64,000 bases of DNA from Rhodovarius lipocyclicus (lineage in GTDB: Bacteria > Pseudomonadota > Alphaproteobacteria > Acetobacterales > Acetobacteraceae). Positions within the stretch are counted from its first letter, which is position 1, and each line of letters starts with the position of its first letter. The stretch lies in the NCBI RefSeq assembly GCF_009900765.1, contig NZ_JAAABL010000005.1, forward strand, positions 62,001-126,000, written 5' to 3'. Below the pieces are notes generated by a model. The model was not told the DNA's origin and did no database searches. It saw only the letters and a program-made list of their open reading frames with translations. The translations under genes were made by a program, and so were the position numbers. Below are positions 10,160 to 43,805 of this stretch, in pieces.

Positions 10160-11098
10160 ATGATCCGTCACCGCCTGACAGCCATCGCGCTGCCGCTGCT
10201 GCTGGCCACCGGCTGCGCCTCCACCGCGCCGGTCCGCCGGGCCGACCTGCCCGCCGGGCAGCGCTTCGCCGGCCAGATGGAAACCGCGGACACCAACGCC
10301 ACCGCCGCCATCCGCCGCGTGGCGGATTTCGAGCAGGTGGTGGTGCGTGAGGAAGCCGCGGTGGCCTATGCCACCGACGGCCGCCGCCCCGCCGACCGCC
10401 CAGGCCCCAGCGCCGCCGACGCCGCGGGCATGGTCTTCGCCCCCGCCTTCGCCGCGATCGGCGATTACGGCCATGTGATGGGCCATGTCGCCTCCGGCCT
10501 GCCGATCACGGCCAAGCCCGGCCCGAGCGGCGCCGAACTGGCCCGCCTGACCGAGGCCGGCCTGGCCGCCGTGCAGACCGCCGCCGGCGTGACCGTGACG
10601 CCAGAGGTGCGCAGCGCGGGCCTGGCCGGCATCATCGCCCTGGCCGACCTGGCCGAGACGATCAGCAAGCGCGGCGGCCCCGAGCCCGGCCTGCGGACCC
10701 TGGCCGCCGAGGCCGAGCCGCATCTGGCCGCCGTGGTGGAATTGCTGAAGCAGGTGCTGGGCGCCGAAACCGGCCAGGCCGTGCGCGGCGCCGTGCGCAG
10801 CAGCCGCAACGCGCTCGAAGCCTCCCACAACCGCCTGCTGACCGCCGCCCGCGCCACCAACCGGGATCCGGTGGCCCGCTACAGCCTGTATCGCAGCATC
10901 GTGGCACTGCGGGACAATGACCCGGTGCAAGGAACGATCGGCGCCGTGGTGACGGTGCTGAACCGCCTGCACACGGCCCATGTGGCCCTGGCGGCGGACC
11001 CGACCAGCACGGATACCGCAGGCAAGGTCGTGGCGTTCGAGAACGCGGTGAACGCGCTGGGCGAGATCGCCGGGGTGCAGCCTACGGAAGAGCAGTAA
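10160..11098 (+). CDS. Putative lipoprotein of unknown function
   Basis: A 312 aa protein whose N-terminus MIRHRLTAIALPLLLATGC ends in a lipobox with Cys19 as the likely lipidation site, so it should be membrane anchored. The mature part is Ala-rich and almost entirely alpha-helical in character (LAEAGLAAVQTAAG, ELLKQVLGAETGQAVRGAV), with no enzymatic motif I recognise. It lies 88 bases after the repeat-protein gene on the same strand and may share its transcript. Its 3' end meets the structured repeat element at 11101. Confidence 0.8.
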   Translation: MIRHRLTAIALPLLLATGCASTAPVRRADLPAGQRFAGQMETADTNATAAIRRVADFEQVVVREEAAVAYATDGRRPADRPGPSAADAAGMVFAPAFAAIGDYGHVMGHVASGLPITAKPGPSGAELARLTEAGLAAVQTAAGVTVTPEVRSAGLAGIIALADLAETISKRGGPEPGLRTLAAEAEPHLAAVVELLKQVLGAETGQAVRGAVRSSRNALEASHNRLLTAARATNRDPVARYSLYRSIVALRDNDPVQGTIGAVVTVLNRLHTAHVALAADPTSTDTAGKVVAFENAVNALGEIAGVQPTEEQ

Positions 11099-11100
11099 GC

Positions 11101-11330
11101 GAGGGCGCTGCCCTCGCGCTCCCGCTCGGGGGGAAATGACTTTCCCCCCGAGAACCCCCCATTACTTTTTGGGAGTTTGGGGGCGGACCTGGGTCCGGGA
11201 GGGTTTTTCTGATAAATTATATAATAATATCAATAATATAAAGCTATTCGCAGGGGACTGGGGAGATCTTATCTCCCCAGCGGAGGGGTCTGGGGAGGCG
11301 GCGCCTCCCCAGTCCACCTTCCCAGGAAGG
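11101..11330. repeat. Structured AT-core intergenic element, copy 1
   Basis: The whole convergent gap is filled by a modular element. It holds a GAGGGC/GCCCTC hairpin (11101-11115), a perfect 12-bp stem CTCGGGGGGAAA with loop TGAC (11125-11152), and an almost pure A/T core (11211-11248, containing ATAATAATATCAATAATATA). Two related hairpins built on CTGGGGAG/CTCCCCAG follow (11258-11280 and 11290-11312), then a CCTTCC/GGAAGG hairpin (11317-11330). A second copy lies at 23080-23295 with the same module order. No coding capacity is visible. The strongly AT core is unlike the surrounding DNA. Confidence 0.85.
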
Positions 11331-11331: not shown

Positions 11332-12321
11332 TCACCCCCTCCCTTCCTCCACCGCATGGCAGGCCACCAGGCTTTCCCCCGCCGCCAGCGCCACGGGCCG
11401 CTCCGCCTTGCAGCGCGCGTTCGCCAGCGGGCAGCGCGGGTGGAAGGCGCAGCCGGAGGGCGGGTTGATCGGTGACGGCACTTCGCCCCCCACCGGCGTG
11501 CGGGCGCGCCCGGTCATCTCGAGGTCCGGGATCGCCTCCATCAGCGCGCGCGTGTAGGGGTGGCGCGGCGCGGTGAACAGGGTTTCCGCCGGTGCCTGCT
11601 CCACGATGCGGCCCAGGTACATCACCCCCACCCGGTCGCTGACCTGCCGCACGACGGACAGGTTGTGGGAGATGAACAGGAAGGTCAGGCCCAGCCGGCT
11701 CTGCAATTCCTTCATCAGGTTCAGGATCTGCGCCTGCACCGAGACATCGAGCGCCGAGGTCGGTTCGTCGCAGACCAGGAATTCCGGGTTGGAGGACAAG
11801 GCGCGCGCGATGGAGATGCGCTGCCGCTGCCCGCCCGAGAATTCATGCGGGAATTTCTCGCCATCGGCCGGGGCCAGGCCCACCTGGGTCAGCAACTCGC
11901 CGACCCGGGCCAGGATCGCCTCCTTGCCCTCCACCAGTTTGAAGGCGCGGATGGGCTCGGCGATGATGTCCCGCACGCGCCAGCGCGGATTCAGGCTGGC
12001 GTAGGGGTCCTGGAAGATCATCTGCATGCGCTGGCGCTGGGCGGGGTCCGCGCGCGCGACCGACAGGGGCTGGCCGTCGAACACCACCGCGCCGTCGCTG
12101 GGCGGGTACAGCCCCACCACCAGCCGCGCCACGGTGGATTTGCCGCAGCCCGATTCCCCCACCAGCGACAGGGTCTGGCCCTTGGGGATGGCGAAGGACA
12201 CCCCATCCACCGCGCGCAGGGTGCGGCGCGGTTCGCGCGCCAGCAGCCGCTGCAGCGCGGGGCGGGAGACATCGAAGTAACGGGCGAGGTCCTGCGCCTC
12301 CAGCATCGGGTTCTCAACCAT
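11332..12321 (-). CDS. Oligopeptide-type ABC transporter ATPase, OppF/DppF subfamily (second transporter)
   Basis: A cytosolic ATPase of 329 aa with Walker [10 protein letters not shown], signature FSGGQ, Walker B FLVCDE and the C-terminal GCAFHPRCPLA motif of the OppF group. It is the last gene of the second ABC operon and overlaps the OppD-type gene by eight bases. A second in-frame ATG five codons in is an equally possible start, since neither has a strong ribosome site. It is closer in type to the ATPase at 2699 than to its own partner. Confidence 0.92.
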   Translation of the reverse strand: MVENPMLEAQDLARYFDVSRPALQRLLAREPRRTLRAVDGVSFAIPKGQTLSLVGESGCGKSTVARLVVGLYPPSDGAVVFDGQPLSVARADPAQRQRMQMIFQDPYASLNPRWRVRDIIAEPIRAFKLVEGKEAILARVGELLTQVGLAPADGEKFPHEFSGGQRQRISIARALSSNPEFLVCDEPTSALDVSVQAQILNLMKELQSRLGLTFLFISHNLSVVRQVSDRVGVMYLGRIVEQAPAETLFTAPRHPYTRALMEAIPDLEMTGRARTPVGGEVPSPINPPSGCAFHPRCPLANARCKAERPVALAAGESLVACHAVEEGRG

Positions 12322-13282
12322 CGGCGTGCAACCAGCAGGCGGCCTGGGTGGTGCCGGCGTCCAGCAGCTCCGGGCGCTCGGTCAGGCAGCGGCCGAACAC
12401 CTTCGGGCAGCGCGGGTTGTAGGCGCAGCCGGGCGGAATGGCGGACAGGCGCGGCATGGAGCCCTCGATGGCGGCCAGCCGCTCCACACGGCGGTCCAGC
12501 GGCGGGATGGAGGCCATGAGCCCCTCCGTATAGGGGTGCCGGGGGTGCTTCACGATCTGGCGCACCGGGCCGATCTCGATGATCCGCCCGGCATACATCA
12601 CCGCCACGCGGTCGGCGGTTTCCGCGATCACGCCCATGTCGTGCGTGACCAGCAGCATGGCCGTGCCCTTCTCCCGCGCCAGGCGCTTCAGCAGGGCGAT
12701 GACCTGCGCCTGGATCGAGACATCGAGCGCCGTGGTGGGTTCGTCGGCGATGATCAGCCGCGGCTCGGCGCAGAGGGCCAGCGCGATCACCACCCGCTGG
12801 CGCATGCCGCCCGAGAATTCATGCGGGTAGCTGTCGATGCGCTGGCTGGCGGCGGGGATGCCCACCAGCTCCAGCCACTCGATGGCCCGGGCGCGGGCCT
12901 GGGCGGGGTTCAGCGGCAGGTGGGTGGTGATGGTCTCCACCAGCTGGCGCCCGACAGTGTAGAGCGGGTTCAGCGTCGTCAGCGGGTCCTGGAAGATGGC
13001 GCCGATCTGCCGGCCGCGCACATGGCGCATCTGGTCATAGGGCAGATTGTCGATGCGCCGGCCGCCCAGCAGCACCTGGCCGCCGGCGATGCGGCCCGGG
13101 GGCTCGATCAGGCCGATAATGGCGGCGCCGGTCATGGATTTGCCGGCACCCGATTCGCCCACCATGCCCAGCACCTCACCGGGTTGGATGGTCAGCGACA
13201 CATCGTGCAGCGCCGTCAGCGTGCCGCGGCGGGTGGGGAATTCCACCCGCAGGTTGCGGACTTCGAGGAGAGGAGCGGTCAT
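12314..13282 (-). CDS. Oligopeptide-type ABC transporter ATPase, OppD/DppD subfamily (second transporter)
   Basis: A cytosolic ATPase of 322 aa starting MTAPLLEVRNLRV. It has Walker A GESGAGKS, signature FSGGM (a Gln-to-Met variant of LSGGQ at the fifth position), Walker B LIIADE and the C-terminal GCAYNPRCPK motif. The start at 13282 overlaps the permease stop by four bases (ATGA) and is preceded by GAGGAGAGGAG, a very strong ribosome site. Longer open frame upstream belongs to the permease gene in another frame. Confidence 0.92.
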   Translation of the reverse strand: MTAPLLEVRNLRVEFPTRRGTLTALHDVSLTIQPGEVLGMVGESGAGKSMTGAAIIGLIEPPGRIAGGQVLLGGRRIDNLPYDQMRHVRGRQIGAIFQDPLTTLNPLYTVGRQLVETITTHLPLNPAQARARAIEWLELVGIPAASQRIDSYPHEFSGGMRQRVVIALALCAEPRLIIADEPTTALDVSIQAQVIALLKRLAREKGTAMLLVTHDMGVIAETADRVAVMYAGRIIEIGPVRQIVKHPRHPYTEGLMASIPPLDRRVERLAAIEGSMPRLSAIPPGCAYNPRCPKVFGRCLTERPELLDAGTTQAACWLHADG

Positions 13283-14181
13283 CGCAGCTTCGGGTTCAGG
13301 GCGTCGCGCAACCAGTCGCCCAGCAGGTTGACGGACAGCACCATCACGATGAGCGAGATGCCGGGGAAAATCGTGATCCACCACTCGCCCGAGAACAGGA
13401 AGTCGTTGCCGATCCTGATCAGGGTGCCGAGCGAAGGCTGGGTGGGCGGCACGCCCACGCCGAGGAAGGAGAGGGTCGCCTCCGCCAAGATGGCCAGCGC
13501 CAGGTTCAGCGTGCCGATCACCAGCACGGGCCCCAGCACGTTGGGCAGCACATGGCGCAGCATGATGGGCAACTTGCCGAGGCCAATCACGCGCGCGGCC
13601 AGCACATATTCCTTGTTGCGCTCCACCAGGGTGGAGCCGCGCACGGTGCGGGCGAATTTCGGCCATTCGCTGATGCCGATGGCGAAGATCACGACGAACA
13701 GCGCGATCTGGTCATGCACCTCCCGCGGCAGGGCGGCGCGCACGATGCCGTCCACCAGCAGGGCGACAAGGATGGAGGGGAAGGTCAGCTGGATATCGGC
13801 CACCCGCATCAGCACCGCATCGGTGGTGCCGCCCAGATAGCCGGCCAGCAGCCCCACCATCACCCCCAGCAGGGTGGCGAAGATGGTGGCCGAGAACCCC
13901 ACCATCAGCGACACCCGCGCGCCGTACATGATGGCCGAGAGCACATCCCGCCCCTGGTCGTCGGTGCCGAGCGGATAGGTGGCATCGCCCTCCGCCGTCC
14001 AGACCGGCGGCTTGAAGGCGTCCATGAGTTGCAGGGAGGCGAGATCGAACGGGTCATGCGGGGCCAGCAGGGGCGCCAGCGCGGAGCCCGCGATGCAGAT
14101 GAAGGCCACCACCGCCGAGGCCATGGTGATGCGGCTGCGGGTGAAGGACCACCACAGGTCGCTGTCGAAGAAGCCCCGCAT
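13279..14181 (-). CDS. ABC transporter permease, DppC/OppC type (second transporter)
   Basis: An inner-membrane permease of 300 aa starting MRGFFDSDLWWSF. The YPLGTDDQGRDVLS motif and an EAA loop (YVLAARVIGLGKLPIMLRH) identify it, and it ends DWLRDALNPKLR. The ATG shares one base with the TGA of the DppB-type gene (TGATG). The open frame continues far upstream through the permease and binding-protein region, but only the part from 14181 is family-like. Confidence 0.92.
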   Translation of the reverse strand: MRGFFDSDLWWSFTRSRITMASAVVAFICIAGSALAPLLAPHDPFDLASLQLMDAFKPPVWTAEGDATYPLGTDDQGRDVLSAIMYGARVSLMVGFSATIFATLLGVMVGLLAGYLGGTTDAVLMRVADIQLTFPSILVALLVDGIVRAALPREVHDQIALFVVIFAIGISEWPKFARTVRGSTLVERNKEYVLAARVIGLGKLPIMLRHVLPNVLGPVLVIGTLNLALAILAEATLSFLGVGVPPTQPSLGTLIRIGNDFLFSGEWWITIFPGISLIVMVLSVNLLGDWLRDALNPKLR

Positions 14182-15158
14182 CAATGCGCCCCCTTGCCGA
14201 TGCGCAGGCGCGGATCGACGGCATAGTAGAGAAGATCGACGATCAGGTTGATGGTCACGAAGACCAGCGCGATCAGCATCAGATAGGCCGCCATCACCGG
14301 CACGTCGGCCGAGCCAACGGACTGGATGAACAGCAGCCCCATGCCGGGCCATTGAAACACCGTCTCCGTCACGATGGCGAAGGCGATGATGGCGCCCAGC
14401 TGCAACCCCGCGATGGTGATGACCGGCACCAGCGTGTTCTTCAGGGCATGGCCGAAATTGATCGCGCGGTTGGACAGGCCACGCGCGCGGGCGAACTTGA
14501 TGTAGTCGGTGCGCAGCACCTCCATCATCTCCGCCCGCACCAGCCGCATGATGAGCGTGAGCTGGAACAGCCCCAGCGTGATCGCGGGCAGGATCATGGC
14601 CTTGAGGCCCGAGACGGTGAGGAAGCCCGTGGACCACCAGCCGATCTGCACCACATCCCCCCGCCCGAAGCTGGGCAGCCAGCCGAGGCCCACCGCGAAG
14701 GCCAGGATTAGCAGGATGCCGATGAGGAAGGTCGGCAGCGACACGCCGATCAGCGAGAAGGTGAGGAAGAAGCGCGACAGGATCGAGTTCCGGTAGAGCC
14801 CGGTATAGACCCCCATCGGCACGCCGACGGCCATGGCGATGAAGGCGGCGCACAGCGCGAGTTCCAGCGTGGCGGGCGCGCGCTCCGCGATCAGCTCCGC
14901 CACCGGGCGCGACAGGCGGTAGGAGAGGCCGAACTGCCCCTGCACCGCCTGGCCGATGAATTTCAGGAACTGCACGAAGAAGGGCTGATCCAGGCCCAGC
15001 TGCGCCACCAAGGCGGCGCGCTCGGCCTCCGTCGCGTCCTGGCCCAGCATGATCGAGACCGGGTCGCCCACATAGGTGAACATGGCGAAGCTGATGAAGC
15101 TGACGGTCAGCATCACCGGGATGGCCTGCAACAGGCGGGAGATGACGAAAGCGAACAT
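14181..15158 (-). CDS. ABC transporter permease, DppB/OppB type (second transporter)
   Basis: An inner-membrane permease of 325 aa starting MFAFVISRLLQAIPVM, a classical DppB N-terminus. It has the GDPVSIMLG segment, EAA loop YIKFARARGLSNRAINFGHA and terminal DPRLRIG motif. It is separated from its binding-protein gene by 171 bases of palindromic and repeated DNA (15159-15329), whereas all later gene junctions of the operon overlap. Confidence 0.93.
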   Translation of the reverse strand: MFAFVISRLLQAIPVMLTVSFISFAMFTYVGDPVSIMLGQDATEAERAALVAQLGLDQPFFVQFLKFIGQAVQGQFGLSYRLSRPVAELIAERAPATLELALCAAFIAMAVGVPMGVYTGLYRNSILSRFFLTFSLIGVSLPTFLIGILLILAFAVGLGWLPSFGRGDVVQIGWWSTGFLTVSGLKAMILPAITLGLFQLTLIMRLVRAEMMEVLRTDYIKFARARGLSNRAINFGHALKNTLVPVITIAGLQLGAIIAFAIVTETVFQWPGMGLLFIQSVGSADVPVMAAYLMLIALVFVTINLIVDLLYYAVDPRLRIGKGAH

Positions 15159-15161
15159 CTA

Positions 15162-15275
15162 GTGGTCCGATCGTTGGCGCCGATAGGCGACGGCGTGAAT
15201 CGGCCCACCGGCAATGGCGTGGTCCGATCGTTGGCGCCGGCAGGCGACGGCGTGAATCGGCCCACCAACAACGCG
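15162..15275. repeat. Two tandem 57-bp palindromic units
   Basis: A 57-base unit starting GTGGTCCGATCGTTGGCGCC at 15162 is repeated at 15219 with few changes. Each unit folds on the minus-strand transcript into an outer stem (GTGGGCCGAT with ATCGGACCAC, one mismatch) enclosing an inner stem CGCCG/CGGCG. Both stems are kept in the two copies. The place, directly between a binding-protein gene and its permease genes, is typical of REP/BIME-like elements that stabilise the upstream mRNA or attenuate downstream expression. Confidence 0.85.
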
Positions 15276-15330
15276 AATGGTGCGCCGTGGCCGGCACGGC
15301 AAGATGGGGTGAGGCATGGTGCGCACCATT
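15276..15330 (-). other. Inverted repeat straddling the binding-protein stop codon
   Basis: AATGGTGCGC (15276-15285) is inverted as GCGCACCATT (15321-15330), whose last base is the first base of the binding-protein stop complement. ATGGTGCGCACCAT (15316-15329) is in itself a perfect 14-bp palindrome. An inner CCGTG/CACGG hairpin lies between. It probably forms a 3' stem on the binding-protein message; there is no T-run for a standard terminator. Confidence 0.5.
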
Positions 15331-16907
15331 CAGTTCACCACGGCCCAGCGGAAATAGGGCTGGTTGTTGGCCATGTGCGGGATGGTGATGCTGGTGCGCA
15401 GCGCCCAGGGGATCATCTGGTGGTGCAGCGGGATCAGCGGCACGTCCTCCCGGAAGATGTGCAGCGCCTGGCGGATGGCGTCCTGGCGGGCGTCCCCGGT
15501 CTCGGTGCGCATGCGGTTGATCAGAGCGTCCATGGCCGGGTTGGAATAGCCGCCATAGTTCCAGATGCCGTCGCCCTGCTGCCCGCCGGCGCGCGACGCC
15601 AGCAGCGACTGGAAGGAATACAGCGCATCCAGCGTCGGCACGCCCCAGCCGAACAGATAGACGCTGGTGTCCTCGCGCTGGATCTTGGCGAAGAACGGGC
15701 CGAGCGGCATGGCGTTCAGCCGGGTGCGGATGCCCACGCGCGTCCACATGCTGGCGATCGCCTGGCAGATCTGCTCATCATTGATGTAGCGGTTGTTGGG
15801 GCAGTCGAGCGTGATCTCGAAGCCGTTCGGATAGCCGGCCTCGGCCAGCAGGGCGCGGGCGCGTGCGGCATCGAAGGGCAGGCGCACATCCTCCTCCCGC
15901 ACATAGCCGTTCACCTGTTCGGGGAAGAGGGTGCCGGTGGGCAGGGACTGGCCGCGCATGGTCACGCGCTGGATCGCCTGGATATCGATGGCTTGGTACA
16001 GCGCGCGCCGCACCCGCAGGTCAGCCAGCGGGTTGCGGCCGCGCACGTCGGAATACAGCAGCTCCGGCCGGGCCACATCCATGGCCAGGAAGATGGTGCG
16101 CACCTCCGGCCCCTCCAGCACGCCCACGCCGGGGGCGGCGCGCAGGCGCTGCAAATCCTGCAACGGGGGGTCCATCACGAAATCCACCTCGCCCGACAGC
16201 AGGGCGGCGATGCGCGTGGCGTCGGAGGCGATGGGGCGGAAGACGATCTCGGTCACATTGCCGGTGCCTTCCTCCCGCCAGCCCCACCAATCGGCGTTGC
16301 GGGTCAGCACGGTGCGCACATCGGGCTCCCGCAGGGACAGGCGGAAGGCGCCGGTGCCGTTGGTGTTGCGGGTGGTGTGCAGTTCCTCGCGCTGGCGGGT
16401 GTTCTGCGGGCGGGCGGCGCCATTCGCCTCGGACCAGCCGCGGCTCATGATGAACACGCTGGCGATCTTGTTGGGCAGGATGGGGTCCGGTACGCGGGTG
16501 ATGATGTCCACCGTCAGCGGGTCCACCGCCACCGCGCTCTCGATCGTGTCGACATAGATGCCGAAATTGGAGGTGGGCTGCTTCGCGCGGGTGATGCTGA
16601 ACACCACATCGTCGCTGGTGAAGGCCTGGCCTTCATGGAAGCGCACGCCCTCGCGCAGATGGAAGCGCCAGCGGTTGGGCTCCACCTGCTCCCACCGCGT
16701 GGCCAGGCCGGGGCCGAGGCCCAGCGTGCGGGTGCGCTGGATCAGCGCGTCATAGACCTGCTGCAGCACCATGGTGACGGTGCCCACATTCTGGCTGTGC
16801 GGGTCCATGGTGTTGGGATCGCCGCTGGCGGACCAGCGGACGGTGCGCGCCTCGGCGCCGAAGGAAAGGCAAAGGGCGGCAACGGCCGCGAAAAGCCTGA
16901 TTCGCAT
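15330..16907 (-). CDS. Periplasmic substrate-binding protein, family 5 (second transporter)
   Basis: A secreted solute-binding protein of 525 aa. Signal peptide MRIRLFAAVAALCLSFGAEA, then RTVRWSASGDPNTMDPHSQN, the typical SBP_bac_5 opening. LREGVRFHEGQAFTSDDVVFS is the diagnostic family motif. The start at 16907 has GGGAG upstream; the frame extends 41 codons further but with non-secretory sequence. It is the first gene of the operon 16907-11332. It is not specially similar to the two binding proteins at 4647-7826, so a different substrate is likely. Confidence 0.93.
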   Translation of the reverse strand: MRIRLFAAVAALCLSFGAEARTVRWSASGDPNTMDPHSQNVGTVTMVLQQVYDALIQRTRTLGLGPGLATRWEQVEPNRWRFHLREGVRFHEGQAFTSDDVVFSITRAKQPTSNFGIYVDTIESAVAVDPLTVDIITRVPDPILPNKIASVFIMSRGWSEANGAARPQNTRQREELHTTRNTNGTGAFRLSLREPDVRTVLTRNADWWGWREEGTGNVTEIVFRPIASDATRIAALLSGEVDFVMDPPLQDLQRLRAAPGVGVLEGPEVRTIFLAMDVARPELLYSDVRGRNPLADLRVRRALYQAIDIQAIQRVTMRGQSLPTGTLFPEQVNGYVREEDVRLPFDAARARALLAEAGYPNGFEITLDCPNNRYINDEQICQAIASMWTRVGIRTRLNAMPLGPFFAKIQREDTSVYLFGWGVPTLDALYSFQSLLASRAGGQQGDGIWNYGGYSNPAMDALINRMRTETGDARQDAIRQALHIFREDVPLIPLHHQMIPWALRTSITIPHMANNQPYFRWAVVN

Positions 16908-16982
16908 GGATGAAGCTCCCGTTACGTCCGCTATACGGCGCCAGCGCGCGGACGGGAAGCGTGCTTTGCATGGCTGGGTTGA

Positions 16983-16999
16983 CGGGGGCGCTGCCCCCG
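16983..16999 (-). terminator. GC hairpin after the AI-2E transporter gene
   Basis: CGGGGGC/GCCCCCG with loop GCT follows the stop codon at 17005 by five bases. There is no T-run. It probably marks the 3' end of the dnaE/AI-2E message ahead of the second ABC operon. Confidence 0.4.
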
Positions 17000-17004
17000 C
17001 GCGC

Positions 17005-18053
17005 TCACCCTCGCGGCGGCGCCTCCCCATTGCCGATCTCCGCCCATTCCTTGATCACCGTGAACCCCACGGCCAGCAGTACGGGCCCCAGGAACAGCCC
17101 CAGGAAGCCGAAGGCCACCACGCCCCCCAGCGCGCCGATCAGCGTCAGCAGCAGCGGCAGATCGGCGCCGCGCGCGATGAACCAGGGCCGGATCACGTTG
17201 TCGGCCGAGGAAATCCCCAAGCCCCCATACAGCAGCATGAACACGCCCCAGCCGGTAGAACCCTGCGTGAACAGCCAGATCGCGGCCGGGATCCAGACCA
17301 GCGGCGCGCCCACGGGCAGAATGGACAGGCACCCCGCCACCACCCCCAGCAGGATGGGCTGCGGCACGCCGGAGATCCAAAGCCCCGCCATGGTCATCGC
17401 CCCCTGCACGAAGGCCGTGCCCACCAGCCCGAACACCACCCCGCGCGTGACATTGGCCACCACCAGCAGCAGGTGCCGCGCCCGGTCGCCCGCCAGGCGC
17501 TGCATCAGCCCCTCCAGCGCGCGGGCGATGGCCGGGCCGTCGCGGTACAGGAAGAAGGCCAGGAAGATCGCCACCAGCAGTTCCGCCACCCCCGACAGCA
17601 CCGACAGCAGGATGGACAGCGCCGTCTGCGCGATGGTGCCGGCATAGGGGCGGACGAAGGCCAGCAACGCATCGGCGTTGCCCATGAACCGCCCATAGAA
17701 CTCCGCCAGGTAATCCCCCGCGAAGGGGATCTGCGCCAGCGTCGGCGCCAGGTCCGGCAGGCCGCCGGCCACCAGGGATTCGATGCGCTGGCTCAGCGCG
17801 TCGATGTCGGAGCGGGAGGTGGGGGCGGCCACCAGCACCGGCACCACCAGCACCAGGAAGCAGGCCAGCACCAGCAGCAGCGAGGTGAGAGTGCGCGACA
17901 GCCGCAGCTTCTCGTTCAGCAGCACGAAGACCGGCCAGGTGCAGAACACCAGGATCGAGGCCCAGAGCAGCGAGGAGATGAAGGGCCGGATGATGTAGAG
18001 GCAGCCCACCCCCAGCGCCACGGCGGCCGCGAGGCCCAGGATACGCCCTTGCA

Positions 18054-18054
<1 letters not shown>
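17005..18054 (-). CDS. AI-2E family transporter (PerM/YdiK-type membrane permease)
   Basis: An integral membrane protein of 349 aa with about eight hydrophobic segments. The family C-terminal signature is clear: PILLGVVAGCLSILPVGAPLV and then the GLGISSADNVIRPWFIARG motif, with NVIRP as the hallmark. The family includes TqsA, but most members have other or unknown roles, so no quorum signal should be assumed. The start shares one base with the dnaE stop (TGATG), so it is translated downstream of dnaE. Confidence 0.88.
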
Positions 18055-21467
<3,413 letters not shown>

Positions 21468-21590
21468 CCCCCCAACATGGCATGCCCAGCCTGATTCTGG
21501 CAGGGATATCAGCCCCCATGCATGGCGCGCATGCCGTGCCCGGCGCGAATGCCTGTTGCGGCGCGCCGCCGCCACGGGAAACCTGCGACC

Positions 21591-22796
21591 ATGAGCATTC
21601 TCACCCGCGCGACGCCGCTCTGGCTTCTCTGTCTCTGTGCCGTGCTGGCCGCCGCCCTGGCCATGGGGCTGCGACAGAGCTTCGGCCTGTTCCTGGCGCC
21701 GATGACGCTGGACCAGGGCTGGACCGCCTCGGGCTTCGCCTTCGCCATCGCGTTGCAGGTGCTGGTGAACGGCGTCAGCCAGCCCATCTGCGGCCAGCTG
21801 GCCGACCGCTACGGCGCGCGGGTGGTGCTGATGGGCGGCGCGGTGCTGTATGGGCTGGGCATTCTGGGCATGGCGCTCAGCGGCGGGCTGTGGCTGTTCA
21901 CCGCCTTCGCCGGGCTGGTGATGGGCGTCGCGGTCTCGGCCGCGGGCATGCCCATCATCAATTCCGCCCTGACGCGCCTGCTGCCGGAGGCGATGCGCGG
22001 CCGCGCGGTGGGGCTCGGCACCGCCGGTTCCTCCTTCGGGCAGTTCCTGGTGGTGCCGGCGGCGCAGCTGGGCATCCATCTGGCCGGCTGGCAGGGCGCG
22101 CTGTTCATGATGGCGGGTGCCGCGCTGCTGATGCTGCCGCTAGCCTTGCCGCTGAATGACCGAGTGGCGGTGCGGGCCGGGGCCGCGCATGAGGAAAGTG
22201 CGAGCGACGCGCTGCGCCGCGCCCTGTCCAGCCCCAGCTTCTGGTGCCTGTTCTGGGGCTTCTTCGTCTGCGGCGTGCATGTCAGCTTCCTGACCGTGCA
22301 CCTGCCGGGCTTCGTGGCCTATTGCCACCTGCCTTCCTATGTCGGTGCCGGCGCCATCTCCCTGATCGGGCTGTTCAACGTGGTGGGCAGCCTGACGGCG
22401 GGCGAGCTCACCTCCCGCTGGAAGCGGCGGGAGCTGCTGGTGCTGATCTATGCCAGCCGGGGCGTGCTGATGGCGGTGTTCATGATGCTGGAAAAGACCA
22501 CCCCCACCGTGCTGGCCTTCTCGGCCATCATGGGGGTGCTGTGGCTGTCCACCGTGCCGCCCACCGTGGCGCTCTGTGCGAGGAATTTCGGGGTGCGGTG
22601 GCTGGGCACCATCTTCGGCCTGGTCTTCATGGGCCACCAGATCGGCGGCTTCACTGGCGCCTTCCTGGGCGGGGTGATCTTCGACGCCACTGGCAGCTAC
22701 GACCTGATGTGGATCATCTCCATCGCCGCCGCCGCCTTCGCGGCGCTGGTGCACCTGCCGGTGCGCGACCCCACCCCCGTGCCGCGCCCGGCCTGA
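21591..22796 (+). CDS. MFS transporter, monocarboxylate/oxalate-formate-antiporter-like
   Basis: A 401 aa inner-membrane carrier with 12 predicted spans. Starts at MSILTRATPLWL; an earlier in-frame ATG adds an Arg-rich stretch overlapping the dnaE promoter side. The motif GQLADRYGARVVLMGG is the MFS loop 2-3 signature, and the N-terminal GLRQSFGLFLAPM pattern is common in the UhpC/OFA-like monocarboxylate group. Substrate unknown. Divergent from dnaE; followed after five bases by a small membrane protein gene. Confidence 0.88.
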   Translation: MSILTRATPLWLLCLCAVLAAALAMGLRQSFGLFLAPMTLDQGWTASGFAFAIALQVLVNGVSQPICGQLADRYGARVVLMGGAVLYGLGILGMALSGGLWLFTAFAGLVMGVAVSAAGMPIINSALTRLLPEAMRGRAVGLGTAGSSFGQFLVVPAAQLGIHLAGWQGALFMMAGAALLMLPLALPLNDRVAVRAGAAHEESASDALRRALSSPSFWCLFWGFFVCGVHVSFLTVHLPGFVAYCHLPSYVGAGAISLIGLFNVVGSLTAGELTSRWKRRELLVLIYASRGVLMAVFMMLEKTTPTVLAFSAIMGVLWLSTVPPTVALCARNFGVRWLGTIFGLVFMGHQIGGFTGAFLGGVIFDATGSYDLMWIISIAAAAFAALVHLPVRDPTPVPRPA

Positions 22797-22801
22797 CGCC
22801 G

Positions 22802-23062
22802 ATGCTGCGCCGGCTGCATGCCTTCTATCTGCGCCTGCCCCTGCCGGTGCAGCTGTTCCTGCCCGGCGTGCTGGGCGGCTTCGTCATCGCCACCCTGCTG
22901 GTGGGCGCGCTGCTGTGGAGCAATTTCGGCGGCATCGGGCAACTGATGCTGCGATCGCGCGAGCACCCCATCCCGGTGCTGCTGCTGTGGTTCTTCCTGG
23001 GGCTCAGTGCCTCCAGCGTGCAGATCGGCATCGCGGTGATGGGGATGAAGAAAGACGATTGA
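22802..23062 (+). CDS. Small membrane protein, unknown
   Basis: An 86 aa protein (MLRRLHAFYLRLPLPVQLFLP...) with two strong transmembrane segments, about residues 22-42 and 58-80, and a short cytosolic tail MGMKKDD. Five bases after the MFS stop, so probably on the same message. No family recognised. The stop lies just before copy 2 of the structured AT-core element. Confidence 0.7.
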   Translation: MLRRLHAFYLRLPLPVQLFLPGVLGGFVIATLLVGALLWSNFGGIGQLMLRSREHPIPVLLLWFFLGLSASSVQIGIAVMGMKKDD

Positions 23063-23079
23063 GGCGCTGCCCTGGAGAT

Positions 23080-23295
23080 TAAGGTTGAGGGGGAAATGAC
23101 TTTCCCCCTCGTCAAACGCGATGCGTTTGCCCCCCCATTACTTTCCATCAGTTTTGGGACAGCCCTGAGCCTGCGAAGGCTTCTCTGGTAAATTTATATA
23201 ATAATATCAATAATATAAAACTATTCGCAGGGGCCTGGGGAGATCTTATCTCCCCAGCGGATGGGGTCTGGGGAAGGCGGCGCCTTCCCCAGCCT
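23080..23295. repeat. Structured AT-core intergenic element, copy 2
   Basis: Same module order as 11101-11330: hairpin GAGGGGGAAA-TGAC-TTTCCCCCTC (23087-23110), an extra CAAACGC/GCGTTTG hairpin (23113-23129), an A/T core (23187-23227) sharing ATAATAATATCAATAATATA with copy 1, CTGGGGAGAT-CTT-ATCTCCCCAG (23235-23257), and CTGGGGAAGGC-GGC-GCCTTCCCCAG (23268-23292). Both stems that differ between copies change on both sides, keeping the pairing. It fills the gap between two convergent genes, as copy 1 does. Confidence 0.85.
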
Positions 23296-23296: not shown

Positions 23297-25024
23297 CTAC
23301 TTCTCCGCCAGGATCGCCGCCGCCATCTTCTCCGCCACCATCAGCGTCGGGAAGTTCGTATTCGCGCTCGGCACGAACGGAAACACCGAGGCATCGCACA
23401 CCCTCAGCCCGGGCGTGCCGTGCACGCGGCCCGCGCTGTCGGTCACGGCCATCGGGTCGTCTTCGCGCCCCATGCGGCAGGTGCAGCTGACATGCCATTG
23501 CCCGGTGGCGTTGGCGCGCACGAAGGCTTCCAGCTTGTCCTCGTCGGCCAGCAGTGCCGCGATGGGCGGGGCCTCGGTGATGAAGGCATGGACGGCGGCG
23601 CGGTGCACGGCGCCCGGCAATTCCAGGATGGGCGCCAGCAGGCGCGTCATCACATCGTTCTTCAGGCCGCGCACCGCCACCTTGCGCACCGCCTCGTTGT
23701 ACACGGCCGGAAAGGCATAGCGGATGGCCCCGCGCAGGGCGGGCATGGCGTGCCACAGCGCGATGCGGCGCAGCGCATCCATCAGGCGCTCCGCGTCCCG
23801 CGCATCCGACAGCAGGTTGAGGTTCACCTCCGGGTGCAGGGCGGGGTCTGCGCCCTGGATGCGCACGCTGCCCTGGCTATAGCTGCGGTTGACCCAGGCC
23901 TGGATCGCCCCCAGCCGCGCGCCCACCGCGTGCCAGGAGGGGCGCGCGATCGCCAGCGCGAACATGTCGCCCCCCGCCACGCCCGGCAGGCCGGAGGACC
24001 AGCGCACCCCGGCATGGATGTTGCGCTGGGTCAGCGCGCCGGGCATGCGGCTGGCGGCTGGCAGCAGGGCGGCCATGCCCATGGTCGGGTGTTCCTGCAG
24101 ATTGCGCCCCACGCCCGGGCGGTGGTTGCGCAGGGCGATGCCATGGGGGGAGAAATCCTCCGGCGCGCCGATACCCTGGCTTTGCAGGAAGGCCGGTGAA
24201 CGGATGGCGCCCATGGAGAGGATGATGTCCCGCCGCACCTCCAGCCGGCGGGTGTCGCCGTCGGGCGCGCGCAGGCGCACGGCGATGGCGCGGCCCTGCG
24301 CGTCGAAATCCAGCCCCAGCACCAGGTGGCGGGCCAGGATGGTCAGGTTGGACCGCGCGCGCACCGCCGCGGTCAGATAGCCCATGGCGGCCGAAACCCG
24401 ATGGTCGGCCGCGGCATTGGCGGTGGTCAGGGCGAACCAGCCATCGCGGAAATCCCCGTTCTGGTCCGCCAGATAGGGCAGGCCCGAGGCCTGCCAGGTC
24501 GCGGCCGCCGCCTGGCTGTAGCCGGGCCAGGATTCGCGCGGGATGCGCCGCACCGGGATGGGCCCGCCGCCACCATGCAGCGGGGTCTCGCCGAAATCCA
24601 GGTCGGTCTCCAGCTTGCGGAAGAAGGGCAGAACCTCGGCCCAGCTCCAGCCCTCGGCCCCCTCACGCGACCAATCGTCGTAGTCGCTGGGCACACCCCG
24701 GTTGCCGAGCTGCCCGTTGATGGAACTGCCGCCACCCATCACCCGCGCCTGCTCATAGCTGCGGGGCTTGGGCGGGGGCTCGGGCCGGTTATGCGGGCGG
24801 TGCGGCAGCGTGACCTTCAGCCCGCGCCACAGGAAGTCCGGGTTGTAGACCGCATGGCCGTGATAGCTGAGGCGGATATCCGCCGGCACGGCCTCGGGCG
24901 GGGTGTCGGGCCCGGCCTCCACCAGGCAGACGCGGCGGGAGGGATCCTCCGACAGCCGGGCGGCCAGGACGGAGCCCGCGGAGCCACCCCCGCAGATCAC
25001 ATGGTCGAACAGGTTCTCGGACAA
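23297..25024 (-). CDS. GMC-family FAD-dependent oxidoreductase (choline/alcohol dehydrogenase-like)
   Basis: A flavoprotein of 575 aa. FAD-binding GGGSAGSVLAARLSED lies near the N-terminus, followed by GMC signature 1 (GGGSSINGQLGNRG) and signature 2 (GAIRSPAFLQSQGIG). The C-terminal HVSCTCRMG and SANTNFPTLMVAEKMA segments hold the catalytic His/Asn pair region. I prefer a TTG start at 25024: GAGGAAG lies six bases upstream and the FAD motif then falls at the usual distance. An ATG at 25108 would add 28 basic residues and reach into the divergent promoter. Substrate unknown (alcohol, choline or sugar alcohol). Divergent from a TonB-dependent receptor. Confidence 0.9.
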   Translation of the reverse strand: MSENLFDHVICGGGSAGSVLAARLSEDPSRRVCLVEAGPDTPPEAVPADIRLSYHGHAVYNPDFLWRGLKVTLPHRPHNRPEPPPKPRSYEQARVMGGGSSINGQLGNRGVPSDYDDWSREGAEGWSWAEVLPFFRKLETDLDFGETPLHGGGGPIPVRRIPRESWPGYSQAAAATWQASGLPYLADQNGDFRDGWFALTTANAAADHRVSAAMGYLTAAVRARSNLTILARHLVLGLDFDAQGRAIAVRLRAPDGDTRRLEVRRDIILSMGAIRSPAFLQSQGIGAPEDFSPHGIALRNHRPGVGRNLQEHPTMGMAALLPAASRMPGALTQRNIHAGVRWSSGLPGVAGGDMFALAIARPSWHAVGARLGAIQAWVNRSYSQGSVRIQGADPALHPEVNLNLLSDARDAERLMDALRRIALWHAMPALRGAIRYAFPAVYNEAVRKVAVRGLKNDVMTRLLAPILELPGAVHRAAVHAFITEAPPIAALLADEDKLEAFVRANATGQWHVSCTCRMGREDDPMAVTDSAGRVHGTPGLRVCDASVFPFVPSANTNFPTLMVAEKMAAAILAEK

Positions 25025-25098
25025 GCCGCGCTTCCTCGTTTTCTTGGGCGCGATCTTGGCATTCGTTTCTGCCCCGGGCCAAGCACGCAGTTGCGCGC

Positions 25099-25132
25099 TT
25101 GACAGCATCGCTGCCGCACACCTTCATAACAT
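25099..25132 (+). promoter_or_regulatory. Candidate promoter for the TonB-dependent receptor
   Basis: TTGACA at 25099-25104 is a perfect -35 sequence, in an unusually AT-rich 60-base stretch directly before the receptor gene. The best -10-like words (CATAAC, TAACAT) stand 20-22 bases away, wider than the normal 16-18, so either an activator is needed or the match is partial. Confidence 0.3.
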
Positions 25133-25151
25133 ATTGAAAAACAACGATTAT

Positions 25152-27263
25152 ATGAAGGAATGCAAAGCTGTGCAGTCACTGAACCTATACATATGTAGGC
25201 CTGTTCAGCTGTTGGTGCTGGGCCTGCCCATCGCGGCCCTGGCGCAGGATGGCGCTGTGATGGCCGAACTGCCGGAGCTGGTGGTGGAATCCGCCCGCGC
25301 GGCCGCCACCCGCACCGGGCAGGACCCGTCCTCCGGCGCCTCCGTCACGCGCTTCGGGCGGGAGGAGATCACCGCCCTGCCCCAGGGCGAGGCCGCGACG
25401 CTGAACCAGGTGCTGCTGCACGCGCCGGGCGTGGTGCAGGAGGCCGCGGGCGACCTGCATGTGCGCGGCGACCACCGCAACCTGCAATACCGCATCGAGG
25501 GCATCGCCATCCCCGAGGGCATCAGCGGCTTCGGCGCGCTGCTGGAGGGGCGGTCGGTCTCCTCCGTCTCGCTGATCACCGGGGCCCTGCCGGCGCAATA
25601 CGGGCAGCGCACGGCGGCCGTGGTGGATGTGCGCCTGCGCGACGGCGCGGTGGACCCGGGCGGCAGCGCGGGGATCTCGGGCGGCTCCAACAGCCTGATC
25701 CAGCCCGGGGGCAGCTATGGCGGCGCGCTGGGGGGGCTGCGCTATTTCCTCAGCGGCAGCCTGCTATTCAGCGATCGCGGCTTCGAGAACCCGACCGGCG
25801 GGGTGAATGCCCTGCACAACGCCACCCGGCAGGGGCGCGGGGTGGTCCAGCTTTCCTACCCCGTCACGGAGACGACGCGCGCCATCCTGGTGGCGGGCAC
25901 GGTGCAGCAGCGCTTCCAGATCCCGAATGTCCCAGGGCAGCCCGCGGCCTATTCCGTGCTGGGGGACGCGCTGCTGGACAGCGCCACCCTGCGCGCCCGG
26001 CAATGGAACCGCAGCCAGTTCGCCATCGCGGGGCTGCGGCATGAGAGCGGGCCGTGGGAGGCGACGCTGGCGCTGTCCGCCCGGCAGACCTCCCTCAGCT
26101 ATCTGCCGGATGTGCGCGGCGAATTGCTGGCCAGCGGCGTGGCGGCGCGGGTGCTGCGGGAAAACCTGTCGCTGGGGCTGCAGGGCGATGCGCAATACCG
26201 GCTGAACGCCGCCCACACGCTGCGCACCGGCTTTTCCGCCAGCCACGACATGACGCGCAACGCGACGGACAGCGCGGTGCTGCCGCTCTCGGGGCCCGAC
26301 ACGCCGTTTACCATCAGCGAGCGCGGGCGCATCGCCACCCGGCTGTTCGGGTTCTACGCGCTGGACGAATGGCGGCTGAGCGAGGCGCTGACCCTGAACC
26401 TGGGCGCACGCTTCGACGCGATGGACCAGCAGGTGAGCGCCTCGCAGCTGTCGCCCCGTGCCTCCCTGGTGTGGCAGGCGAGCGAGGCGACCAGTGTCTC
26501 GCTGGGCTATGCCCGCACCTTCACCCCCGCGCCGGCGGAGCTGCTGGCCCTGCCGGCCCTGTCCCGCTACGCCGGCACCACATTGGCACCCGAGGTGAAC
26601 CGCAACGACCCGGTGCGGCCGGAGCGCGCGCATTACGTGAACCTCGGCCTGCGCCACCGGCTGAGCGAGGAGATCACGCTGGGGGTGGAGCTGTATCACC
26701 GCACGGTGCGGGACATGCAGGATCTGGGGCAGTTCGGCCGCGCCTATGTGTTCAGCCCCTATAACTACCAACGCGGGCGGGCCTATGGGGTGGAGCTGTC
26801 GGCCGGGTGGCGGCGGGGAGCGCTGTCGGCGCAGGCGAGCCTGGCGGTCTCACGCTCCGAGGGGCGGGGGCTGATGTCCAGCCAATATGTGTGGAGTGCC
26901 GCGGAGCTGGCGCAGGTGGCGCGGAAATACGTGCGCACGGACCATGACCAGCTGCTGACCGGCAGCGCGAGCACGAGCTGGCAGGGGTGGGAGGGCGGCA
27001 CGCTGAACGCCAGCCTGCTGTATGGCAGCGGGATGCGGCGGGGCTTCGCCAACAGCCAGTCGGTGACGCCCTATGTGACGGTGAACCTGGGGGTGAGCCA
27101 ACGCTTCAGCCTGCCGCGCGCGGGGGAATGGGTGGCGCGGGTGGATGTGATCAACCTGTTCGACCGGAACTATATGCTGCGGGATGGGACGGGGATTGGC
27201 GTGGGGGCGCCGCAATACGGGCTGCGGCGGGCGGTGCTGGCGGGGGTGAGCCGGGAGTTTTGA
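25152..27263 (+). CDS. TonB-dependent outer-membrane receptor
   Basis: A 703 aa outer-membrane receptor. The N-terminal hydrophobic segment VQLLVLGLPIAALAQ is the signal peptide. A plug domain follows (LPELVVESARA..., then TLNQVLLHAPGVVQEAAGDLHVRGDHRNLQYRIEG split over residues about 75-115), then a beta-barrel ending VSREF with the terminal Phe needed for outer-membrane insertion. The ATG at 25152 has almost no ribosome site; a GTG at 25170 preceded by AAGGA is a possible alternative start. The first codons are AT-rich compared with the rest. Ligand unknown; no TonB, siderophore or sensor genes are adjacent, only the divergent GMC oxidoreductase. Confidence 0.9.
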   Translation: MKECKAVQSLNLYICRPVQLLVLGLPIAALAQDGAVMAELPELVVESARAAATRTGQDPSSGASVTRFGREEITALPQGEAATLNQVLLHAPGVVQEAAGDLHVRGDHRNLQYRIEGIAIPEGISGFGALLEGRSVSSVSLITGALPAQYGQRTAAVVDVRLRDGAVDPGGSAGISGGSNSLIQPGGSYGGALGGLRYFLSGSLLFSDRGFENPTGGVNALHNATRQGRGVVQLSYPVTETTRAILVAGTVQQRFQIPNVPGQPAAYSVLGDALLDSATLRARQWNRSQFAIAGLRHESGPWEATLALSARQTSLSYLPDVRGELLASGVAARVLRENLSLGLQGDAQYRLNAAHTLRTGFSASHDMTRNATDSAVLPLSGPDTPFTISERGRIATRLFGFYALDEWRLSEALTLNLGARFDAMDQQVSASQLSPRASLVWQASEATSVSLGYARTFTPAPAELLALPALSRYAGTTLAPEVNRNDPVRPERAHYVNLGLRHRLSEEITLGVELYHRTVRDMQDLGQFGRAYVFSPYNYQRGRAYGVELSAGWRRGALSAQASLAVSRSEGRGLMSSQYVWSAAELAQVARKYVRTDHDQLLTGSASTSWQGWEGGTLNASLLYGSGMRRGFANSQSVTPYVTVNLGVSQRFSLPRAGEWVARVDVINLFDRNYMLRDGTGIGVGAPQYGLRRAVLAGVSREF

Positions 27264-27271
27264 GGGGATGC

Positions 27272-27472
27272 CTACAGCTTCGCGGCCAGCTTCCGCGCCA
27301 GCACATAGCCCAGCAGCCCCGCCACCGGCCCCGCCGGCAGCACCAGCACCCAGCCGGCATGCGCCCCGTTGACCACCAGCCCCAGCCCAATGCCCAGCAT
27401 CAGCCCGCCCACCAGGCTGCCCACCACACCGGCCGAAAGGCCCAGGACCAGGATCTCTTCGCGCGTCACCAT
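27272..27472 (-). CDS. Small Gly-rich membrane protein, unknown
   Basis: A 66 aa protein (MVTREEILVLGLSAGVVGSL...) with two hydrophobic segments rich in Gly, ending in a basic tail ARKLAAKL. Its 3' end lies eight bases from the 3' end of the TonB receptor gene, and its start is divergent from the rpsD promoter. Codon usage looks coding in this frame. The family is not recognised; upstream ATGs were rejected because they would cover the rpsD promoter. Confidence 0.6.
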   Translation of the reverse strand: MVTREEILVLGLSAGVVGSLVGGLMLGIGLGLVVNGAHAGWVLVLPAGPVAGLLGYVLARKLAAKL

Positions 27473-36585: not shown

Positions 36586-37679
36586 GCGCACCGCTCAAGC
36601 CCCCCAGCCGGGACGCCCGGCTGGATGCCATCCGCGGTTGGCTGCAGCTGTCCATCTTCGCCTCCCACATGGGGGGCAGCATCACGGGCGGCTGGTTGAT
36701 CCATGCGGCCTGGGGCGTGTCCGACAGTTCCGAGCAGTTCGTCTTCCTGTCTGGCTTCGGGCTGGGGTCGGTGTTCCTGTACAAGCAGGCGCGGCAGGGT
36801 TTCCTGGCCGCCTGCCGGGACATGGCCGGGCGCTTCGGCAAGCTGTGGCGCATGCACATGCTGGTGTTCCTGGGCTTCGGCGTGATGGTCACGGGGGCCG
36901 CCGCCCTGCTGGGCACGCCGGGCTGGAGCTATGCCATGGCCCACCCGGTGCTGGCCGCGATCGGCGGCACGCTGCTGCTGTACCAGCCGCCCTTCATGGG
37001 CATCCTGCCCATGTTCCTGCTGGGGATGGCGGCGCTGGTGCCCTTTCTGTGGCTGGTCGGGCGCTGGGGCGCCTGGGCACTGCTGGTGCCGGCCATCCTG
37101 TATGCCGCGGCCCAGGTGCTGCCCGCGGAATGGCCCGCGCTGGGCGGCACCCATATCGCCTTCAGCCCGGCAGGCTGGGTGCCGCTGTTCCTGCTGGGCG
37201 CCTGGTTCGGCCGCCGCGTGCTGTTCACCGGCCGCGCCGTGCGCCCCACCCCCTGGCTGATCGCCGGCGCGCTGGGCGTGGTGGCGCTGGGGCTGGCGGC
37301 CAAGCTGACCGGCACCCTGCCCGCCTGGCTGGACGGCAAGGAGCAGCTGGCCCCGCTGCGCGCCCTGCACGCGCTCAGCCTGGCCTATCTGGTCGCGGCG
37401 CTGGTGCCGCGCGACGCCGCCTGGGCCCGCACGCCTCTGGCCGGGGCGCTGGGCCGCATCGGGCGCAACAGCCTGCATGTGTTCAGCCTGGGGCTGTTCC
37501 TGTCCTGGACGGGCACCGTGGCGCTGGCCCGCCACCCGGCGCTGGAGCTGCTGCTGATCCCCGGCGGCGCGCTGATCCTCTGGGCTTTCGCCCGCCATCT
37601 CGAGAACCGCCGCATCGCCGCTAGCGCCGGCACCGGCAGCGCCCATATGCTGGCGGCAGGAAAAGGGCCTTCCGCATGA
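36582..37679 (+). CDS. opgC: OpgC-type membrane acyltransferase
   Basis: A 365 aa protein with about ten spans. RLDAIRGWLQLSIFASHMGG at the N-terminus and LSGFGLGSVF after span 2 are hallmarks of OpgC, the acyltransferase_3 relative that succinylates periplasmic glucans. ATGA overlaps at both ends bind it to the DoxX-like gene before and msrP after. No glucan synthase gene (opgG/opgH/ndvB) is in the window, so the acceptor is not shown. Confidence 0.88.
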   Translation: MSAPLKPPSRDARLDAIRGWLQLSIFASHMGGSITGGWLIHAAWGVSDSSEQFVFLSGFGLGSVFLYKQARQGFLAACRDMAGRFGKLWRMHMLVFLGFGVMVTGAAALLGTPGWSYAMAHPVLAAIGGTLLLYQPPFMGILPMFLLGMAALVPFLWLVGRWGAWALLVPAILYAAAQVLPAEWPALGGTHIAFSPAGWVPLFLLGAWFGRRVLFTGRAVRPTPWLIAGALGVVALGLAAKLTGTLPAWLDGKEQLAPLRALHALSLAYLVAALVPRDAAWARTPLAGALGRIGRNSLHVFSLGLFLSWTGTVALARHPALELLLIPGGALILWAFARHLENRRIAASAGTGSAHMLAAGKGPSA

Positions 37680-38614
37680 ACATCATCCGCCGCAAGGGCT
37701 GGGCGCTGCCCGACAGCGCCGCCACATCGCAGGCATTCGTCCTGAACCGCCGCGCGCTGATGGGCGCCCCCGCCCTGCTGGCGGCCACGCCGGCGCTGGC
37801 CCAGCAAGGCGCCATCCCCGCCCTGCCGGAGCATCAGCGCAACCCGGCCTATCCGGGCGGGCGCGCCATCACCGCCGAGCGCGAGGCCACCAACTACAAC
37901 AATTTCTATGAATTCGGCACCTACAAGGGCATCGCGCGGGACGCCCAGCGCATGCCCCGCCGCCCTTGGCGGCTGAAGGTGGAAGGGCTGGTCGAGAACC
38001 CGCGCGAATTCGACATCGATGACCTGATCCGGATGATGCCGATCGAGGAGCGCGTGCTGCGCCTGCGCTGTGTCGAGGCCTGGGCGATGACCGTGCCCTG
38101 GTCCGGCTTCGCGCTGAAGGCGCTGCTGGATGTGGTGAAGCCCATGGCGAGCGCGAAATACCTCGCCTTCCAGACCGCCGCCCTACCCGCCGTCATGCCC
38201 GGCCTGCGCCAGAGCTGGTACCCCTGGCCCCACCAGGAGGCCTGCACCATCCAGGAGGCCGGCAACGAGTTGGCCTTCATGGCGGTCGGCATGTACGGCA
38301 ACCCGCTGCCGGCCCAGAACGGCGCCCCGGTGCGGGTTCTGTTCCCGTGGAAATACGGCTTCAAATCAGGCAAGTCCCTGGTGCGGATCACCTTCCAGGA
38401 GGAACGCCCGGCCACCTTCTGGGGCACCATCCAGCCCCAGGAATACGGGTTCTGGGCCAATGTGAACCCCGAAGTGCCCCATCCGCGCTGGAGCCAGGCC
38501 ACCGAACGCCTGATCGGTAGCGGCGAGCGCGTGCCGACCCAGATCTGGAACGGCTATGGCGAGCAGGTGGCCGCGATGTACCAGGGGCTGGGGAGCGAGC
38601 GGCTGTTCACCTGA
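37676..38614 (+). CDS. msrP: Protein-methionine-sulfoxide reductase catalytic subunit MsrP (YedY)
   Basis: A periplasmic molybdopterin enzyme of 312 aa that repairs oxidised methionines in envelope proteins. The Mo ligand is Cys132 in LRLRCVEAWAMTVPWSG. Other family segments: NNFYEFGTYKG, PRQSWYPWPHQE-like stretch and LFPWKYGFKSGKS. The N-terminal NRRALMGAPALL is a Tat-type signal although it begins after some 20 residues. The haem partner msrQ is not adjacent; instead the gene overlaps opgC by four bases, an unusual partnership. Confidence 0.95.
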   Translation: MNIIRRKGWALPDSAATSQAFVLNRRALMGAPALLAATPALAQQGAIPALPEHQRNPAYPGGRAITAEREATNYNNFYEFGTYKGIARDAQRMPRRPWRLKVEGLVENPREFDIDDLIRMMPIEERVLRLRCVEAWAMTVPWSGFALKALLDVVKPMASAKYLAFQTAALPAVMPGLRQSWYPWPHQEACTIQEAGNELAFMAVGMYGNPLPAQNGAPVRVLFPWKYGFKSGKSLVRITFQEERPATFWGTIQPQEYGFWANVNPEVPHPRWSQATERLIGSGERVPTQIWNGYGEQVAAMYQGLGSERLFT

Positions 38615-43715: not shown

Positions 43716-43805
43716 AAAAAAAAGGCCGCCCCAGAGAGGGCGGCCAAGTTTAGGGAGGAAACGCCAGTCACACGGCAGAAAGAGGACCAACCTCTCTCTG
43801 ACGAA
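43716..43805 (-). ncRNA. Candidate alpha-r8 (MmgR/suhB-type) small RNA
   Basis: Read on the minus strand, a hairpin (43778-43799) is followed by an unpaired stretch with UUUCCUCCCU (complement of 43752-43761), then a perfect 8-bp terminator stem GGCCGCCC/GGGCGGCC (43724-43745) and eight U (43716-43723). The UUUCCUCCCU word next to the terminator is, as I recall, the hallmark of the alphaproteobacterial alpha-r8 family, whose S. meliloti member MmgR is about 77 nt. The word is complementary to strong ribosome sites, so the RNA probably blocks target mRNAs. The 5' end is approximate. Confidence 0.6.

Follow-up and report, generated by a model that had tools for sequence, protein, structure and literature searches.

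According to our analysis, the segment at positions 11099 to 11312 of the window, the 64,000-nucleotide stretch of Rhodovarius lipocyclicus DNA studied here, is probably a lineage-specific, dispersed 3'-end element made of hairpin clusters set tail to tail, which serves the genes on both of its sides and whose copies have been shuffled by recombination. It consists of four hairpins (A, B, B', and A') around an AT-rich core in about 215 bases, with a small fifth hairpin reaching to position 11330. The family of composite 3'-end repeats to which it belongs is unnamed and lineage-specific; this family is of the REP/BIME and ERIC kind in a broad sense and lacks the features that define REPs and MITEs. 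The parts of this copy, hereafter copy 1, are as follows:

11099 to 11117, + strand: hairpin A (H1), directly 3' of the TAA stop codon of the gene at 10160 to 11098
11118 to 11124, + strand: left C-rich linker L1, 7 nt, separating hairpins A and B
11125 to 11152, + strand: hairpin B (H2), CTCGGGGGGAAATGACTTTCCCCCCGAG, whose outer pairs covary to TTGAG/CTCAA in other copies
11153 to 11183, + strand: C-rich linker CCCCCCATTACTTTTT with the conserved box GGGAGTTTGGGGG
11211 to 11242, no strand assigned: AT core GATAAATTATATAATAATATCAATAATATAAA, in other copies a landing site for insertion sequences
11245 to 11257, + strand: short right core arm TATTCGCAGGGGA
11258 to 11280, + strand: hairpin B' (H4), CTGGGGAGATCTTATCTCCCCAG
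11281 to 11289, + strand: right linker CGGAGGGGT, G-rich on this strand and C-rich on the opposite one
11290 to 11312, + strand: hairpin A' (H5), adjoining the 3' end of the reverse-strand gene at 11332 to 12321
11317 to 11330, + strand: small extra hairpin CCTTCCCAGGAAGG, immediately before the stop codon of that reverse-strand gene

GC hairpins around an AT core had been described at this place in a previous sequence-only reading, and both were confirmed, the AT content of the core reaching 97% in 30-base windows against a GC content of 68.8% in the window. Beyond what that reading had noticed, the element follows the stop codon of the gene at 10160 to 11098 without a gap; on its right it stops just short of the stop codon of a reverse-strand ABC transporter gene (11332 to 12321). 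Many other copies have a longer right core arm (...CCCCAAACTCCTCGCAGGGG), which pairs with the left box. Single-strand folding of the element is far better than that of shuffled sequences on both strands (z scores of -6.3 and -7.1). Among the copies, the linkers of the left half are rich in C on the transcript strand, and those of the right half are rich in G and hence in C on the opposite strand, so that a transcript arriving from either side meets hairpins spaced by C-rich stretches, and the layout is identical when read from either strand. There is no credible gene within copy 1, in agreement with the lack of coding potential noted earlier: the only open reading frame call inside it is a weak one of 156 nt, scoring 11.6 versus about 350 for the neighboring genes.

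Two further elements of this architecture are present in the window:

23063 to 23292, + strand: copy 2 of the element, with the same order of parts and an extra hairpin at 23111 to 23131
about 38634 to 38870, + strand: element of a second sequence family with the same A-B-core-B'-A' layout and the AT core CCATTGATTTTTATAATGAAAATGG

Copy 2, which had been reported about 12 kb away with its parts in the same order, was indeed found there, bordered by a gene ending at 23062 on one side and by a reverse-strand GMC oxidoreductase gene (23297 to 25108) on the other. The third element had not been reported and sits between the convergent genes 37676 to 38614 (+) and 38885 to 40048 (-); elsewhere in the genome, elements of the second family account for three AT islands in 320 kb of one contig (C2). 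Of the AT islands in the window, only that at 25122 to 25161 (CTTCATAACATATTGAAAAACAACGATTATATGAAGG, with complementary ends) does not belong to an element; it lies just upstream of the reverse-strand GMC gene and possibly marks a promoter region.

The sequence-only reading had named in advance two outcomes of a genome-wide search as speaking against it, namely the absence of further copies and a known element family. The search with copies 1 and 2 by BLAST returned about 45 complete or half copies, far above what chance would give, mostly with 72 to 96% identity in the part that matched, and they could be assigned to no known family. Covariance models run on the whole genome detected 42 left modules (at least 46 bits) and 51 right modules (at least 41 bits), and the AT core alone gave 19 matches with up to 3 mismatches, compared to none for the reversed control. 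Many of the half copies are found at contig ends, since insertion sequences occupy their cores.

In an alignment of 26 full copies, hairpin pairing is kept in 94.6% of pair cells and falls to 51 to 59% when partners are slid by 1 to 3 columns. Double changes occupy 81 cells, versus 31 in shuffles, and none of 500 shuffles was as good. All four hairpins are thus maintained by compensatory changes. The closing pairs of hairpin B are either CTCGG/CCGAG or TTGAG/CTCAA, the stems of hairpin A include TGAGGGC/GCCCTCA and CGAGGGC/GCCCTCG among others, and those of hairpin B' are GGGGAGAT/ATCTCCCC or GGGGACAC/GTGTCCCC. The central stem AGTTTGGGG.../...CCCCAAACT of the copies with a long right arm is more loosely conserved (82% of cells). 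The type of left hairpin is not associated with the type of right linker, each of the four possible combinations being present (7, 6, 4, and 4 copies), as recombination between copies would produce. At the right ends of five elements (L004, L010, L011, L013, and L018), a second tandem hairpin A' lies beyond the element (CTTGGGGAAGGC...GCCTTCCCCAG), which indicates that gene ends gather extra hairpins.

The placement of the copies relative to genes points to a role at transcript ends. Among the 30 copies with both flanks on a contig, to which the count was limited as insertion sequence fragments at contig ends inflate larger counts, 15 have convergent neighbors, 15 have tandem ones, and not one is flanked by divergent genes; the flanking genes were called with a simple codon model that may err in individual cases. 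Of 339 sampled background junctions, 49 (14%) are convergent and 50 (15%) divergent, which gives P values of 4e-6 for the convergent excess and 0.008 for the lack of divergent pairs. In copies whose left half lies behind a gene, the start of that half is as a rule -3 to +8 nt away from the stop codon, and many copies have the TGA stop codon inside the hairpin A stem. Between tandem genes, i.e., in half of these copies, only one half of the element abuts a gene end, which counts against the explanation preferred here.

From the viewpoint of the neighboring gene's transcript, each half of the element would be a two-hairpin cluster with C-rich linkers. With the two halves tail to tail around the AT core, a transcript entering from either side would encounter, after the stop codon, a hairpin, a C-rich linker, a second hairpin, and a second C-rich linker. 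In this way the element would most probably either end transcription from both sides or fix and protect the RNA 3' end after Rho-dependent termination, for which the C-rich linkers would also be suited, and read-through into a convergent neighbor would be stopped. A bidirectional terminator had already been proposed by the sequence-only reading, and the position of the copies fits that proposal. Canonical intrinsic termination was ruled out: the longest T run in the 10 nt that follow each hairpin is 2, so there is no U tract, and a terminator scan detected no intrinsic terminator in the element. A survey of 13 genomes reported that hairpin clusters less than 15 nt apart by the stop codon, for which no U tract is needed, are the commonest form of terminator (PMC8355165). 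The element resembles these clusters in having at least two hairpins less than 15 nt apart directly behind the stop codon and no U tract (in copy 1, hairpin A is at the stop codon and hairpin B follows 7 nt later), but they are local structures of single genes, whereas here the copies belong to one dispersed, two-sided unit. Bidirectional terminators of convergent genes share its position and two-sided layout; they usually consist of one hairpin with A and U tracts, whereas the element carries a tandem-hairpin module on each side.

When we compared the same gene ends with those of the closest congener genome, very probably Rhodovarius crocodyli CCP-6, in which the relative of a window gene is located on contig NZ_SACL01000014.1, the stop codons and last residues of the element-flanked genes were found to agree within a few codons, and an insertion that rewrote the protein ends was thereby ruled out. 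The DNA behind these stop codons differs. One gene end (L014) has in R. crocodyli a classical intrinsic terminator, GCCGGCGCCTGTCGCCGGCTTTTTTT, three others (L003, L017, and L019) have T-rich hairpins, and two (L008 and L015) have another element of the same class, while a further one (L006) has a single GC hairpin in a gap of 37 nt, versus about 240 nt in the host. That the congener has different terminator-like hairpins behind the same genes is the best evidence that the element is a stand-in for a terminator. No empty site is available for copy 1, since its left-hand gene has a different neighbor in R. crocodyli. Elements of the same class exist in that species, one of which (L183) shares CCAAACTCCTCGC with the present element. 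We also observed in R. crocodyli another repeated 3'-end element with T-rich hairpins, e.g., CTTCTTTTTCTGTAGAAAAAGAAGCAAAAAGACTTTT (L164, L184, L190, and L191).

Beyond this species, the covariance model R1, run on the host genome and 59 relatives, gave weak matches in 22 of 35 family members, part of which may be generic GC-rich hairpins, and none in 24 genomes of other families, with a best score in relatives of 43.7 bits versus 111 in the host. The matched relatives have the same layout in other letters, with hairpins A and B each followed by a CCCC stretch and then a core stem, B', and A', and the core stem of several of them carries TTTGGGGA...TCCCCAAA. It is conceivable, although we advance it tentatively, that a family-wide class of composite tail-to-tail elements seals the gene ends of this Acetobacterales family, that individual lineages expand their own versions by recombination, and that the copies largely set where chromosomes break and insertion sequences land. 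If so, terminators would turn over like interchangeable parts. The element described here joins three topics, namely the separation of convergent genes without U-tract terminators in high-GC bacteria, the turnover of intergenic repeats at fixed gene ends among sister species, and the clustering of synteny breaks and insertion sequences in few places, and its copies offer a natural allele series for asking which hairpins end transcripts.

Gene order is frequently interrupted at the copies. The block from 11332 to 23058 is collinear in R. crocodyli at 87% identity, and both of its ends fall exactly on copies 1 and 2. Among the junctions for which both flanks were found, 13 of 16 with an element are broken relative to R. 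crocodyli, compared to 2 of 11 convergent controls (P = 0.002), the controls being drawn from one long contig and having shorter gaps. Two gene ends that adjoin separate element copies in the host, the left one of L008 and that of the GMC gene next to copy 2, lie opposite one another in R. crocodyli (C22) at a distance of 254 bp, as expected from an exchange between two element sites. We infer that the copies were multiplied and shuffled by recombination from copy to copy, and for the spread of the element no transposase that fits was found. As side effects, the copies would serve as joints at which the chromosome is rearranged, and insertion sequences of this GC-rich genome land mainly in the AT cores. 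A synteny breakpoint relative to R. crocodyli also occurs at 27263 to 27274 of the window, where no element of this class is present.

Alternatively, the copies could represent a selfish, nonautonomous MITE- or REP-like element which inserts behind stop codons, is moved by an unrecognized transposase, and is seen at gene ends as these are harmless sites. Such an element would explain why the roughly 45 copies are confined to one species, no close copy being present in 8 congeners or 27 other genomes of the family, and it would account for the site at which the congener has a gap of 37 nt; yet the sequence divergence among copies (identity mostly about 73 to 93%), the independent swapping of their modules, the compensatory changes in all four hairpins, and a position fixed within a few bases of an unchanged stop codon all speak against it, and we consider it improbable. 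Several hallmarks of mobility are missing as well. No Y1 transposase (PF01797) was detected in the host genome, while 5 of 14 control genomes were positive. There are no terminal inverted repeats, as had been noted earlier, the ends being hairpins A and A' of different sequence without long inverted arms, and no target duplication is visible at the single resolved site with a shorter allele. GTAG or its complement is missing from 24 of 26 copies and present in 2; CGTC or its complement was counted in 15 of 26 at any position, regardless of its place relative to a hairpin foot, and the majority consensus has neither tag at a hairpin foot. MITEs and REPs mobilized by RAYT transposases were ruled out on account of the missing PF01797 domain and terminal repeats and the scarcity of the GTAG tag. 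The suggestion of a REP/MITE-like mobile element made in the sequence-only reading holds, then, for the dispersed REP/BIME kind in a broad sense and not for a MITE or a RAYT-mobilized repeat. A plasmid- or virus-borne repeat was likewise discarded, since plasmids gave no match to the element and viral contigs none to the stem and loop of hairpin B.

REPs and BIMEs are palindromes dispersed among the 3' ends of genes, usually in the gaps of convergent or tandem pairs and often less than 20 bp from stop codons; they form mosaics of modules and are known targets of insertion sequences (PMC3733652, PMC1525189). The element is similar in all these respects, including its absence between divergent genes. 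However, REPs are 20 to 40 bp long and carry a GTAG or CGTC tag, the GTAG types being accompanied by a RAYT transposase, whereas the element is a fixed hairpin block of about 215 bp, mostly without GTAG, in a genome without a Y1 transposase; CGTC REPs are missing from Acetobacteraceae according to the REP survey cited (PMC3733652/PMC1525189). ERIC, YPAL, and NEMIS sequences (PMC2267715) are comparable in size (about 100 to 250 bp), intergenic location, copy number (tens), and strong common secondary structure, but ERIC forms one long stem-loop, whereas the element forms four separate hairpins plus a central stem around its AT core. In the literature searched, which was not exhaustive, no description of this element was found.

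Slightly less probable than a selfish element is a site acting at the DNA level, with IHF or another nucleoid protein bound at the AT core and the hairpins working as cruciforms or gyrase sites, a role that would be compatible with one at 3' ends. A nucleoid-protein site had also been among the suggestions of the sequence-only reading. AT islands are scarce in this genome, 6 of 8 in 384 kb being element cores, and the core keeps ATAATATCAAT nearly unchanged. The IHF consensus WATCAANNNNTTR is exact in 4 copies and has one mismatch in 16 more (20 of 26), but one-mismatch matches arise in about one-fifth of shuffles of the same cores, and the copies are not independent. Moreover, the cores of the second family do not keep the full motif, and in L059 and L062 the place of the core is taken by a GC hairpin or is not AT-rich. 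Among known systems, the RIB/RIP clusters of E. coli are IHF-binding REP clusters in which palindromes surround an AT-rich, IHF-type site where a transcription unit ends. The palindromes of the element likewise flank an AT-rich, IHF-type candidate site at a 3' end; its IHF site is a candidate by motif, and the likeness is one of layout.

The AT cores also receive insertion sequences. Of the 29 detected ends of two insertion sequence types, 27 lie inside AT cores of either family (L193 to L221, host contig ends), while length alone would predict about 0.03 if the cores number about 100 and measure 45 bp. One type is represented by a DDE_Tnp_1_2 fragment below the curated cutoff, and the other leaves 8-base repeats, TTATACAA or TCAATTAT. 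Insertion sequences in the cores explain many contig ends of the assembly. Given the scarcity of other AT islands, a preference for AT-rich targets explains most of this concentration, 27 of 29 being not significantly above the 6 of 8 share of islands (P = 0.2), and targeting of the element as such is inseparable from it. That the cores persist by drawing insertion sequences into harmless places is for the same reason quite unlikely, although the excess over the expectation by length is what such havens would produce. Equally doubtful is a structured noncoding RNA with a function of its own, which would agree with the strong conserved structure and with letters conserved in loops and linkers, e.g., GAAATGACTTTC and CCATTACTTT, as the modules swap freely, the core is replaceable, and Rfam gave only noise, with no match of the element above the gathering score, so that a known RNA family was ruled out. 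Elsewhere in the window, positions 43709 to 43783 (- strand) match the suhB/mmgR small RNA family of Rfam above the gathering score.
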